Shown piece by piece: positions 5,762-22,168 of a stretch of DNA of 22,347 bases. The notes beneath the pieces were generated by a model, which saw only the letters and a list, made by a program, of their open reading frames with translations, was not told the origin of the DNA and ran no database searches. The stretch is from a virus, in IMG/VR virus record IMGVR_UViG_3300031857_001525, positions 1-22,347 of that record, one strand, 5' to 3'. Each line of letters starts with the position of its first letter. Within the stretch, counting starts at the first letter, position 1. A program made the position numbers and the translations under genes.

Positions 5762-5953
5762 ATGAAAACAGCAATGCAAGAAATGATTGAATATGTAAAA
5801 GAAGTATGGGGGTGGGACCAAGATTTTGAGATAGAGGCAAAAGAACTACTTGAAAAAGAAAAGAAACAAATAGAACAAGCATTTAGAAAAGGAGGTGATT
5901 TCCGTTCATTTGGAGGCAACCCCGATTATTACAACGAAACCTATAAAAATTAA
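5762..5953 (+). CDS. MKTAMQE-family small protein, copy 1 (63 aa)
   Basis: A member of a three-gene family in this window (with 5960 and 7866). The shared parts are an N-terminal MKTAMQE block and helix, an acidic-basic middle (ELLEKEKKQIEQAF), and a C-terminal D/EYYNxTYK tail. The middle differs between copies. Such 'MKTAMQEL...KEK..I...YYN.TY' proteins are common in Bacteroidota phages and have no assigned function as far as I know. All helical, soluble. Confidence 0.8.
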   Translation: MKTAMQEMIEYVKEVWGWDQDFEIEAKELLEKEKKQIEQAFRKGGDFRSFGGNPDYYNETYKN

Positions 5954-6991: not shown

Positions 6992-7130
6992 GTATAAATA
7001 CTTAATATTAAATAATTAATTTAATTAACTTTACATTTTATTGATAACTACAAACCAGAAACAATATAAGATTGCGTATTTATACTTAATATTAATTAAA
7101 TTAATTAAATCAACTTTGTACTTTATTAAA
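6992..7130 (+). repeat. Imperfect tandem duplication, offset 84-85 bp
   Basis: GTATAAATACTTAATATTAA at 6992-7011 recurs as GTATTTATACTTAATATTAA at 7076-7095 (18 of 20 matches). After each copy an AATTAAT-rich run leads to AACTTT (7027 and 7112) and a further T-rich segment, at an offset of 85. The two units, about 50 bp each, flank the YKPETI remnant. Confidence 0.6.
7043..7069 (+). pseudogene. Remnant of a MKTAMQE-family gene 3' end
   Basis: In one frame the bases read D-N-Y-K-P-E-T-I-stop, matching the YKPETI end of the intact gene at 7866-8108. A 16-nt identity (AAACCAGAAACAATAT at 7052-7067 and 8091-8106) supports this. No start codon is available upstream. It looks like the tail of a deleted or displaced family copy. 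Confidence 0.5.
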
Positions 7131-7379: not shown

Positions 7380-7862
7380 ATGATTAATTATAGGCAAATA
7401 TGGATTAAAAAACATGGCAAAATACCAATTGATAACAACGGTAGAAGCTATGAAATTCATCATATTGATGGGAATAGAAAGAATAATTCAATTGAAAACT
7501 TGGTTTGTATTAGTATTGATGAACACTACCAAATTCATTTAAAAAATGGCCAAATACACGCTGCTAATTTAATTGCAAATAGAATGAATAAACAATTATT
7601 GACCGGACATCATTTTACTGATGAGGTAAAAAAGAAAATAAGTGATTCAAAAAAAGGTAAATTAAAATCTGAAACTCATAAACAAAAAATGAGTGATGCT
7701 AAAAAGGGTAAAATTTTTACTGAATCACATAAACAAAATTTAAAAAAAGAAAAATTGAAGTTAACTTGTCCAGTTTGTGGACTTATTGGTGGCGCTAATG
7801 CAATTAAAAGGTTTCATTATGATAAATGCGGTAAACCATATATATTTAAACGTAACAAATAA
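7380..7862 (+). CDS. Free-standing HNH homing endonuclease with NUMOD3 motifs
   Basis: Residues 24-44 carry the HNH nuclease core (YEIHHIDGNRKNNSIENLV, with H27-H28, D30, N32, N36). Two NUMOD3-type DNA-binding repeats follow at about 79-93 and 99-112 (TDEVKKKISDSKKGK; ETHKQKMSDAKKGK), then a probable C-terminal zinc finger (C130, C133, H146, C150). The family makes a nick or break at a target DNA site so that its own gene is copied in. The genes on both sides are intact, so it sits between genes and not in an intron. It has its own -7 element, separating it from operon expression. Confidence 0.92.
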   Translation: MINYRQIWIKKHGKIPIDNNGRSYEIHHIDGNRKNNSIENLVCISIDEHYQIHLKNGQIHAANLIANRMNKQLLTGHHFTDEVKKKISDSKKGKLKSETHKQKMSDAKKGKIFTESHKQNLKKEKLKLTCPVCGLIGGANAIKRFHYDKCGKPYIFKRNK

Positions 7863-7865
7863 CCT

Positions 7866-8108
7866 ATGAAAACAGCAATGCAAGAATTAATTGATGAATT
7901 AAGAAGTTTAGCTTTTACTGAATGTCATATAAGTATGGGAGCTATTATGCTTACGCAAGGACACATTGACGAATTAGAAGAAAAATATCTTAAGAAAGAA
8001 AAAGACCAAATTATATCTTCTTATAATGAACCTCTATGGATTACTGATAAACCAAATGTTAAAGCAGAAGAATACTACAACCAAACCTATAAACCAGAAA
8101 CAATATGA
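7866..8108 (+). CDS. MKTAMQE-family small protein, copy 3 (80 aa)
   Basis: Third member of the family with 5762 and 5960: MKTAMQELIDELRS start, KYLKKEKDQIISSY middle, and EEYYNQTYKPETI end. The inserted middle (residues about 17-38, TECHISMGAIMLTQGH) is unique to this copy. It starts 3 nt after the HNH gene, and its stop overlaps the next ATG (ATGA). Soluble and helical, function unknown. Confidence 0.8.
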   Translation: MKTAMQELIDELRSLAFTECHISMGAIMLTQGHIDELEEKYLKKEKDQIISSYNEPLWITDKPNVKAEEYYNQTYKPETI

Positions 8109-8500
8109 AAAAGAAACCAATACATAAGTTTAATGGAGGCATGGGTGCTACCTTATGCCATCATTGTAGAGTTATAATAAACACAGGAATGACAGATGAC
8201 ATATACTGTAAGGATTGTGCTGACAACAAGGTAACTTACCATAACAGATACAGAGATAAGATAATCTTTGAACATAATGGAGATGAAGTTATTATGACAG
8301 GTGGTTCATGGATGCGGTATGGTATAGCAGATGATGATAGTATTAATATGGTAGACCCATCAGGTGGGCCTTATATTGAGTTAGGTAATAACCTTAACTA
8401 TTTTTTTCCTAAAGGAGAATACCAAGACCTTATCGTAGAATCTATTAGGTTAAAAGATGGGGAAGGAGAAGCCACAACAGTTATATTTAAAATTAAATAA
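8105..8500 (+). CDS. 131-aa protein with N-terminal zinc ribbon
   Basis: Residues 7-38 hold HKFNGGMGATLCHHC ... IYCKDC, with C18/C21 and C35/C38 forming a four-cysteine zinc ribbon. I recognise this HKFNGGxGAxLCxxC block from many Bacteroidota phage proteins of unknown role. The C-terminal 85 residues form a separate, likely beta-rich domain (KIIFEHNGDEVIMTGGSW ... TTVIFKIK), so the gene looks like a fusion of a common ribbon with another module. It overlaps both neighbours (ATGA and TAATG). Confidence 0.85.
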   Translation: MKKKPIHKFNGGMGATLCHHCRVIINTGMTDDIYCKDCADNKVTYHNRYRDKIIFEHNGDEVIMTGGSWMRYGIADDDSINMVDPSGGPYIELGNNLNYFFPKGEYQDLIVESIRLKDGEGEATTVIFKIK

Positions 8501-8571
8501 TGGTAGTAATACTACTAATTTTGGCTGCATTTTACTTCCTACTTTGGCTAACTTTATTACATATTTTGTAA
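8500..8571 (+). CDS. 23-aa membrane peptide
   Basis: The ATG overlaps the stop of the zinc-ribbon gene (TAATG). The product is hydrophobic from residue 2 to 23 (Val/Ile/Leu/Ala/Phe, with Trp), one membrane helix with almost nothing else. It is too short for standard gene calling, but the coupled start and pure membrane profile are suggestive. It is the last frame before the repeat-bearing gap. Confidence 0.45.
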   Translation: MVVILLILAAFYFLLWLTLLHIL

Positions 8572-8582
8572 AGTACTACCCT

Positions 8583-8733
8583 TACTTTATGTAAACTATA
8601 AGAGCAACATACTGCACTTTTTGTCGCTAAAGTCCTTTACACGACACTTTTTAGTACGTATATGCGTTTTATTACACTTTATGCACAACCGAATGTGCAC
8701 TTATTACTCATAATTGTACGTATATGCGTACAA
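8583..8733. repeat. Phased CACTTT motifs, direct repeat and two hairpins
   Basis: CACTTT starts at 8615, 8645 and 8675, exactly 30 bp apart, with wider agreement A-N-N-R-CACTTT-(T/A)-T-R. Related TACTTTATG (8583) and CACTTATTA (8698) flank them. GTACGTATATGCGT occurs at 8654-8667 and again at 8716-8729. Two perfect inverted repeats are present: TGCACA/TGTGCA (8682-8699) and TTGTACG/CGTACAA (8714-8733). The region could be an operator, a replication start, or encode a small structured RNA. Confidence 0.6.
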
Positions 8734-8742
8734 AAAACATAA
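8662..8742 (+). CDS. Possible 26-aa peptide within the repeat region
   Basis: A frame of 26 codons ends 3 nt before the ATG at 8746 and includes a hydrophobic run (VHLLLIIVRICV). It lies inside the repeats and hairpins, so a chance frame is as likely. It is listed because the neighbouring tiny membrane peptides have the same style. Confidence 0.2.
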   Translation: MRFITLYAQPNVHLLLIIVRICVQKT

Positions 8743-8745
8743 ACT

Positions 8746-8853
8746 ATGATAAAAATAATCCTTATTGCCGTCTACCTTATTGCCTTATTCTTATTTGTAA
8801 AGGATATGTGTAAAGCCCCATTGGTAAAAATAGATGAAGATGATGTCTATTAG
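8746..8853 (+). CDS. 35-aa membrane peptide at the convergence point
   Basis: Residues 2-18 are a hydrophobic helix (Ile/Leu/Ala/Val/Tyr), followed by KDMCK and an acidic tail (KIDEDDVY). It is probably a one-pass inner-membrane peptide. It is the last + strand gene. Its stop (TAG, 8851-8853) overlaps the stop of the convergent minus-strand gene (TAA, 8852-8850). The leader contains the CGTACAA hairpin arm. No family is recognised. Confidence 0.55.
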   Translation: MIKIILIAVYLIALFLFVKDMCKAPLVKIDEDDVY

Positions 8854-9206
8854 TGCTTAACTGGTAGTTGCTTTTTGTCTATGAATTTGTAGATAAACTC
8901 TGCTATGTGACCTGATAACCATGCTCCAGCTTCATCATCTACAATACCTCTGTCACTTTTTATTACATTAACCATGTGATAGTTTTCATGTGATAGGGTA
9001 TTGTGGCTTAAATACTTTTGCTCTATAATCATGTAGTAGACATCTATGTCTGGGGTGATAACTGTACCTTCTGCATCTCCTTCAAACATCTGCCCCATTT
9101 TATGCTTTTTGTATACTTTATTAGCTTCATTTATTAATGAATCTGTAATAATAAGTACCACCTTGCATCCGTAGGTAGATATTTTTAGTGTAGATGTTAG
9201 TTTCAT
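8850..9206 (-). CDS. HExxH metalloprotease-like phage protein (118 aa)
   Basis: The core is SHENYHMV, an HExxH zinc motif (H73, E74, H77), followed by an acidic DDE (90-92) that could give the third ligand as in short zincin-type peptidases, then a helix ending FIYKFID. No signal peptide or membrane helix is seen, so action in the cytoplasm is likely. I recognise the layout (KYLSHNTLSHENYH...) from many Bacteroidota phages, where it is unannotated. The substrate is unknown. It is last in the lysis operon and coupled to DUF3310 (TAATG). Confidence 0.85.
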   Translation of the reverse strand: MKLTSTLKISTYGCKVVLIITDSLINEANKVYKKHKMGQMFEGDAEGTVITPDIDVYYMIIEQKYLSHNTLSHENYHMVNVIKSDRGIVDDEAGAWLSGHIAEFIYKFIDKKQLPVKH

Positions 9207-21545: not shown

Positions 21546-22106
21546 CTAGACTACATGAGTCCAGCTAGTTCCGTTTAATATTTTTTGAATTGTAGTTTTT
21601 CCAATGTTAAACATTATTGATAACTTCCAATGAGAAAACCTACCTGTTTTATACAACAATTTTATTGCCAAAACCTTATCTTCATCCAAAATGGCAGTAC
21701 TTCTTTCAGAGCCTCTAGTCACCTTAAGTTTACCAGCTTCGTATGCGTGCTTTGCATTTCTGCTATGGTCACACCATTCTAAATTTTCTGCTCTATTGTC
21801 AGCCCTGTCGCTATTCAGATGATTAACAATCCTAAATTTTTCAGGATTAGGATTATCCACAAATGCTCTAGCAACTAAAACATGGACATTCTGCATCTTT
21901 TTTATACCATCTTTCTTAAAAGATACCACTTTGTACCCATGACTATTACTACCTATTACTATTTTTTCTTTAGAAACTCTCATTCCTTTACTATGCCTTA
22001 ATAGCCTAGGAAGCATTTTTATCCTGCCTAAATTACTTACTTCATAGTATCCGTCATATAAATCACCCTTCACACCTAATATGGGTTTCCAAATTTCTTG
22101 TTCCAT
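21546..22106 (-). CDS. HNH homing endonuclease with NUMOD4 and HTH (186 aa)
   Basis: The order is NUMOD4 motif (EIWKPILGVKGDLYDGYYEV then SNLGRI, 4-29), HNH_3 nuclease core (VHVLVARAFVDNP, VNHLNSDRADNRAENLEWC, 74-112, then NAKHA), and a C-terminal helix-turn-helix (KLSIMFNIGKTTIQKILNG, 161-179) for site recognition. I chose the ATG at 22106. A longer frame would translate the terminator hairpin. It makes cuts that copy its gene into related phages. It lies between a terminator-promoter unit and the 301-aa gene. Confidence 0.93.
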   Translation of the reverse strand: MEQEIWKPILGVKGDLYDGYYEVSNLGRIKMLPRLLRHSKGMRVSKEKIVIGSNSHGYKVVSFKKDGIKKMQNVHVLVARAFVDNPNPEKFRIVNHLNSDRADNRAENLEWCDHSRNAKHAYEAGKLKVTRGSERSTAILDEDKVLAIKLLYKTGRFSHWKLSIMFNIGKTTIQKILNGTSWTHVV

Positions 22107-22121
22107 GAATTTTGATTTATA

Positions 22122-22129
22122 CAAATATA
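22122..22129 (-). promoter_or_regulatory. -7 element before the second HNH gene
   Basis: TATATTTG on the minus strand is identical to the -7 at 263 and 7368 and lies 15 nt before the ATG at 22106. It starts two bases past the T-tract of the terminator hairpin. No clear -33 is visible. Confidence 0.55.
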
Positions 22130-22131
22130 AT

Positions 22132-22155
22132 AAAAGGGGTGGAAAATCCACCCCC
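22132..22155 (-). terminator. Rho-independent terminator after the partial virion gene
   Basis: A perfect 8-bp stem (TCCACCCC/GGGGTGGA at 22136-22143 and 22147-22154) with a 3-nt loop is followed on the minus strand by TTTTATTATA. It sits 14 nt after the stop of the truncated gene at the right edge. Confidence 0.8.
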
Positions 22156-22168
22156 ATTATCATTAAAA

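Follow-up and report, generated by a model that had tools for sequence, protein, structure and literature searches.

A degenerate array of tandem small hairpins at the early/late junction of an uncultivated phage: a candidate operon-end RNA element

Described systems and the hairpin array

In bacterial chromosomes, the short palindromic units known as REP and BIME are clustered in intergenic regions, often past the end of operons, and are gained or lost unit by unit. The hairpin array considered here differs from them in sequence and size, is borne by phages, occupies one locus per contig and has no associated transposase that could be seen. Intrinsic and bidirectional terminators offer a second comparison, as in relatives of the phage studied the first hairpin of the region (H1) displays an A-tract, a stem and a T-tract (AAAGGTAGT-N6-ACTACCTTT) directly after a gene, and as the arrays lie between operons. 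The H1 of relatives fits the layout of a stem-loop that closes an operon and runs into a stretch of T, the copy in our phage being worn. The array itself, in contrast to such terminators, is a tandem series of several AT-rich, weak hairpins with a conserved spacer of 15 nt, mostly without a T run, and its terminating activity is a prediction. Origin iterons and phage operators or stoperators share with it the presence of short repeats within a gene-free gap, but the conserved part of the array is a hairpin plus a spacer, mostly oriented with transcription, while the repeated motif and its spacing are not conserved. The closest phage parallel found is the ESAS of cluster K mycobacteriophages, located upstream of start codons with the 13-bp SAS, in many copies per genome (PMC3203893). 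Both consist of short imperfect inverted repeats that are phage-specific, intergenic and common to related phages; however, the arrays mostly follow operon ends instead of gene starts, with one locus per contig and no SAS.

The preliminary description of this locus knew of no described counterpart, and the searches agree with it. No match of the window to Rfam 15 exceeded the gathering score, and a loose search of the gap yielded only chance-level matches. Within INPHARED (50,697 phage records), neither megablast with the window nor blastn with the region or the module gave a significant or relevant match to gap or module, and no matching system emerged from a non-exhaustive search of papers on tandem terminators and on palindromic repeats in phages. 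One spacer-word match, in a Dehalococcoidia MAG, came from the scan of a genome collection; it has no array context and was taken as chance. The array may accordingly be viewed as a set of operon-end hairpins belonging to a new sequence family, with a function predicted from sequence.

The convergent junction and its repeats

The window analyzed here is the whole IMG/VR record of an uncultivated phage, 22,347 bases in length. Its plus-strand genes, mostly short, extend to position 8500 and its minus-strand genes begin at 8850, the gap between them (8500-8850) being the meeting point of two converging transcription arms, early on the plus strand and late on the minus strand. The minus arm comprises, in order, an unknown 118-aa protein (phrog_1365; 8850-9206, minus), encoded by the last gene of the late operon and upstream neighbor of the minus-strand units described below, a DUF3310 protein, a metallophosphoesterase and a GH19-type endolysin. 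A small plus-strand frame at 8746-8853 (MIKIILIAVYLIALFLFVKDMCKAPLVKIDEDDVY, 35 aa), which would encode a membrane protein, was retained as a gene because comparison with relatives revealed 7-8 synonymous versus 4-6 non-synonymous differences across its 35 codons; in four relatives it is conserved immediately past the array. Two other frames were rejected as genes: a 23-aa frame (8501-8572), which is the non-coding H1 segment matching relatives, and a 26-aa frame at 8662. The latter might have been a conserved protein accounting for the repeats, yet it lies inside the hairpin units and is preserved in no relative seen.

Elsewhere in the window, HNH homing endonucleases with the motifs NUMOD3 and NUMOD4 are encoded twice, at 7380-7862 (plus) and 21546-22163 (minus). 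Two paralogous small genes (5762-5953 and 7866-8108) start with MKTAMQE(M/L)I and have nearly identical 5' DNA; similar genes also follow the ERF gene in L104-type contigs, so that they apparently form a repeated small-gene family of these phages. A 52-nt stretch (7076-7127) recurs nearby at 83% identity, the second match being found within L002, a contig presented below.

Direct reading confirmed CACTTT at 8615, 8645 and 8675 on the plus strand, in steps of exactly 30 bp, a perfect 14-nt repeat (GTACGTATATGCGT) at 8654-8667 and 8716-8729, and two dyads with perfect arms, TGCACA-ACCGAA-TGTGCA (8682-8699) and TTGTACG-TATATG-CGTACAA (8714-8733). The two looser flanking copies are also present (TACTTT at 8583, CACTTA at 8698), but outside the 30-bp register, at steps of 32 and 23. 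Coordinates and chance tests both bear out a gap free of genes in which the two arms meet and in which repeats and hairpins are non-random. In a gap of like composition, the 14-nt perfect repeat has a probability of about 0.0005, and five perfect 6-bp dyads with loops of 3-9 were observed versus 1.0 expected (P 0.014); repeats and dyads are clearly beyond chance. The CACTTT triple exceeds chance only modestly: at least one equally spaced hexamer triple is expected in such a gap with P ~0.02, the window holds four of them versus ~0.5 expected, and CACTTT itself is not enriched there (17 copies versus 19 expected).

The plus-strand RNA of 8500-8740 folded better than 200 of 200 shuffles (z -3.5). 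The minus strand folded less well (z -1.9), a difference due in part to pairing between the two near-palindromic 14-mers; in plus-strand RNA this pairing would form a long stem (8654-8732) enclosing the 8682-8699 hairpin. Stem energies within the gap range from -1.6 to -8.6 kcal/mol, the stems being AT-rich and weak, and a crude terminator scan of the gap passed only the 8682-8699 hairpin, on the plus strand.

The hairpin module in related phages

Relatives were gathered through the metallophosphoesterase gene, giving 24 loci, and further loci through the 118-aa and 131-aa neighbors and through hairpin and spacer words. Two sequence words retrieved 83 and 32 contigs, some of the 83 being chance coding matches; coding matches of TGTACGTWYTGRYGTACA (L105, L108, L146, L165) were excluded. 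The 17-nt GGTAGT palindrome alone was abandoned as a marker, being too unspecific and located within coding sequence in many of its 44 contigs. A single relative, L002, shares the whole gap, with 99.98% identity over 8.2 kb, and may effectively be regarded as the same virus. Apart from L002, the CACTTT triple is absent from all relatives examined. The alignment with the gaps of relatives proposed in the preliminary description therefore revealed no conservation of motif or spacing beyond L002, and the reading as iterons or as a multi-site operator fails the check set there, because the 30-bp spacing is unique to the window and this nearly identical contig. The spacing is better understood as the period of a worn tandem repeat, hence as a by-product.

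What relatives do share is a module of small hairpins. The last gene of an operon is followed by H1 (AAAGGTAGT-N6-ACTAC(C/T)TTT), by the segment TTTTGGCTGCATTTTACTTCC and by the H2 hairpins AAAGT..ACTTT, after which come the unit TGTACG-N6-YGTACA with its 15-nt spacer (TAATGTGTAATAAAC and variants), H4 (TGCAC-N8-GTGC) and further hairpins, e.g., TTGCAACAATGTTGCAA or GCATGGATTTTCAGAAAATTTCATGC. In the tandem unit, a hairpin of 18 nt is joined to a spacer of 15 nt (approximately TAATGTGTAATAAA). Successive spacers are 33 nt apart in L195 and L200, and perfect or near-perfect 33-nt tandem units (TAATGTGTNATAAAA + TGCACANNNNNNTATGCA) are found in L195, L199 and L200. There, between a 468-aa and a 301-aa gene, they are followed by repeated GTGTCGC words, resembling ACACGACACTTTTT of the window.

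Dozens of contigs carry the module at a boundary between operons, and close relatives differ by entire hairpins (~21, 23, 30, 54, and 75 nt). In the largest group, it sits between a GNAT acetyltransferase gene and an ERF recombinase operon, several of these arrays being directly followed by a promoter of the Bacteroidetes type, TTTG...TAnnTTTG (consensus from PMC6414381). It occupies a convergent junction like that of the window in L007, L015, L070, L072, L077, L078, and L084; L007 and L015, which have the same convergent gap, carry the hairpins GGTAGTAATACTACT, TGTACG..GTACA and TGCAC..GTGCA. The unit model found no match in near-complete relatives of 58-70 kb. Judging from translations, genes resembling homing endonucleases lie inside the hairpin gap, GIY-YIG-like in L095, L069, and L004 and HNH-like in L094, and the gap may be a preferred insertion site. 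In L003, L005, L008, L009, L010, L012, L014, and L017-L020, a minus-strand frame after the 118-aa gene replaces the gap, so that the junction of the arms lies further away; homology to the plus arm of the window restarts at ~8594 in L008, L009, L010, and L018.

The gap of the window is a worn copy of this previously unlisted family of tandem small hairpins, found at the end of gene blocks in related phages. On the plus strand, H1 (TGGTAGT-AAT-ACTACTA, 8501-8517, -5.3 kcal/mol) follows the last gene and is a worn copy of the terminator-like hairpin of relatives. Then comes the same trailer segment as after their H1, TTTTGGCTGCATTTTACTTCC...ACTTTGGC...CTTTATTACATA..TTTTGTAAAGT..ACTTTATGTAAA (8518-8596), which includes H2 (AAAGT-N9-ACTTT, 8570-8588, -4.5 kcal/mol). 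The other half of the copy lies inverted, and roughly four degenerate units can be recognized on its minus strand (8733-8700, 8699-8667, 8666-8634, and 8633-8602). Unit 1 comprises the hairpin TTGTACG-CATATA-CGTACAA (8733-8714, -8.6 kcal/mol) and the spacer TTATGAGTAATAAG, and contains the second copy of the 14-nt repeat. Unit 2 comprises the hairpin TGCACA-TTCGGT-TGTGCA (8699-8682) and the spacer TAAAGTGTAATAAAA (8681-8667), as identified by a covariance model, and contains the third CACTTT (8675-8680). Unit 3 (CGCATATACGTACTAAAAAGTGTCGTGTAAAGG), placed by register, holds the second CACTTT (8645-8650) and the first copy of the 14-nt repeat. The first CACTTT, AAAGTG on the minus strand (8615-8620), falls within an ACTTT-N8-AAAGT dyad (8616-8633). 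AAAGTG, the reverse of CACTTT, occurs in or beside the spacer of three of the approximately four units.

Homology was evaluated with this covariance model of the 18-nt hairpin and 15-nt spacer, trained on 18 relatives with the window excluded. The best match within the window, at 8699-8657 of the minus strand, reached 31.1 bits (E 1.2e-5), versus 18.0 bits for the best plus-strand match, and the window unit was also recovered in a 546-kb search (E 3e-4), which places the window within the family. Unit 1 scored 11.5 bits on the minus strand and 18.0 bits on the plus strand. The spacer PWM alone gave no exceptional score over the whole 22-kb window, and the homology claim therefore relies on hairpin plus spacer; within the gap only, spacer scores had P values of 0.018 (best) and 0.0003 (second).

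A proposed operon-end RNA element and its rivals

The orientation of the module mostly follows that of transcription. Of 30 loci, 26, window included, have the unit pointing the same way as the gene ahead of it. The 30 loci, many of them close kin, represent about eight independent contexts, and L188, L190, L197, and L062 are the exceptions. The window conforms to this rule, its minus-strand units lying 151 nt past the last gene of the late operon. Spacers scored without their hairpins lay almost always on that same strand in the arrays of relatives. Pairing was also maintained on one strand. At pair 4 of H1, the transcript strand has G.U in 16 distinct sequences, G-C in 14 and A-C in none, and pair 6 of the unit hairpin varies between G-C and G.U; these G.U pairs favor RNA because they are mismatches on the opposite strand. 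The arms change in concert, being TGTACG/CGTACA in most relatives and TGCACA/TGTGCA in the window; L195 and L200 have TGCACA/TATGCA, with one mismatch. Against this RNA reading stand a few A-C cells in H4 and in the TTGCAAC hairpin, as well as the better folding of the plus strand of the gap, opposite to the one on which the units read. An RNA 3'-end element nevertheless fits better than iterons or operators, because the tandem units are mostly in one orientation relative to transcription, in line with the structured RNA that the preliminary description listed among its options.

The explanation that we favor, and to which we would give roughly an even chance, is an array of RNA hairpins ending operons at the convergent early/late junction, through termination or protection of the 3' end. 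The gap would then be made of two operon ends placed back to back. Its left half (8501-8596) would form the 3' trailer of the plus-strand early operon, with the A/T-flanked H1 and then H2; its right half, read from 8733 to ~8610, would be a degenerate tandem array of ~30-33-nt minus-strand units that lies shortly past the late lysis/structural operon. Once transcribed, the hairpins would fold successively and stop or weaken the polymerase, protect the 3' end from exonucleases as a cap, or do both, with less collision and less antisense transcription between the convergent arms as the outcome. In relatives, the same module would end an operon, and a fresh promoter can follow. Any termination is probably only partial, because the conserved plus gene at 8746-8853 lies beyond the array with no recognizable promoter.

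A serious rival, although we consider it unlikely, is that of neutral or selfish repeats, short palindromic units spreading and recombining at phage module boundaries with no function for the phage. The gain and loss of whole units, the decay of the window copies, the absence of the unit from near-complete relatives and its inversion without obvious harm all agree with it, as does the insertion, at this very boundary, of minus-strand genes and of homing endonuclease genes (GIY-YIG in L095 and L004, HNH in L094). Such repeats would however hardly be expected to keep their orientation to transcription mostly intact, to maintain arm pairing despite sequence change, or to retain the 15-nt spacer across phages with differing flanking genes. 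A discrete non-coding RNA acting in trans after processing from the operon trailer is quite improbable. The structured plus-strand RNA (z -3.5) and the spacer words conserved across phages would suit it, whereas unit number and order differ among close relatives, no Rfam family was recognized and the window gap has no internal promoter.

We give slightly less credit still to a multi-site operator, in which a phage protein would bind the dyads and control the early/late switch. Dyads do recur with constant geometry (5-bp arms, N8), and a promoter lies directly downstream in several relatives. Arm sequences, however, vary among dyads, which makes a single-protein operator unlikely; moreover, G.U pairing confined to one strand suggests RNA, relatives other than L002 lack the CACTTT triple, and the window gap is convergent and devoid of any promoter of the Bacteroidetes type. 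Least probable is a replication origin with iterons: the gap is gene-free, repeated and dyad-rich, the array precedes the ERF recombinase operon in relatives and the strand skew does change sign at the gap, but that change coincides with the coding-strand switch, which accounts for it and deprives it of value as origin evidence, the units are freely gained, lost and inverted, the repeat motif and spacing are restricted to the window and L002, and the 58-70 kb relatives lack the unit, which argues against an origin unless theirs has diverged.

More tentatively, and with a probability that we regard as low, the operon-end array could represent a novel type of 3'-end element in phage RNA, in which a portable series of tandem 33-nt units, each a hairpin with its conserved spacer, can lengthen, shorten or invert unit-wise. 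This would adjust termination or RNA decay at the edges of operons, the spacer possibly being read by a phage or host protein. The locus also teaches that striking exact spacing in one genome can stem from a degenerate tandem repeat. The natural series of arrays differing by entire hairpins offers a ready test of transcript ending by tandem weak hairpins. In uncultivated phages of the Bacteroidetes type, operon ends and terminators are barely mapped, and a recognizable border module would aid the annotation of their transcription units.
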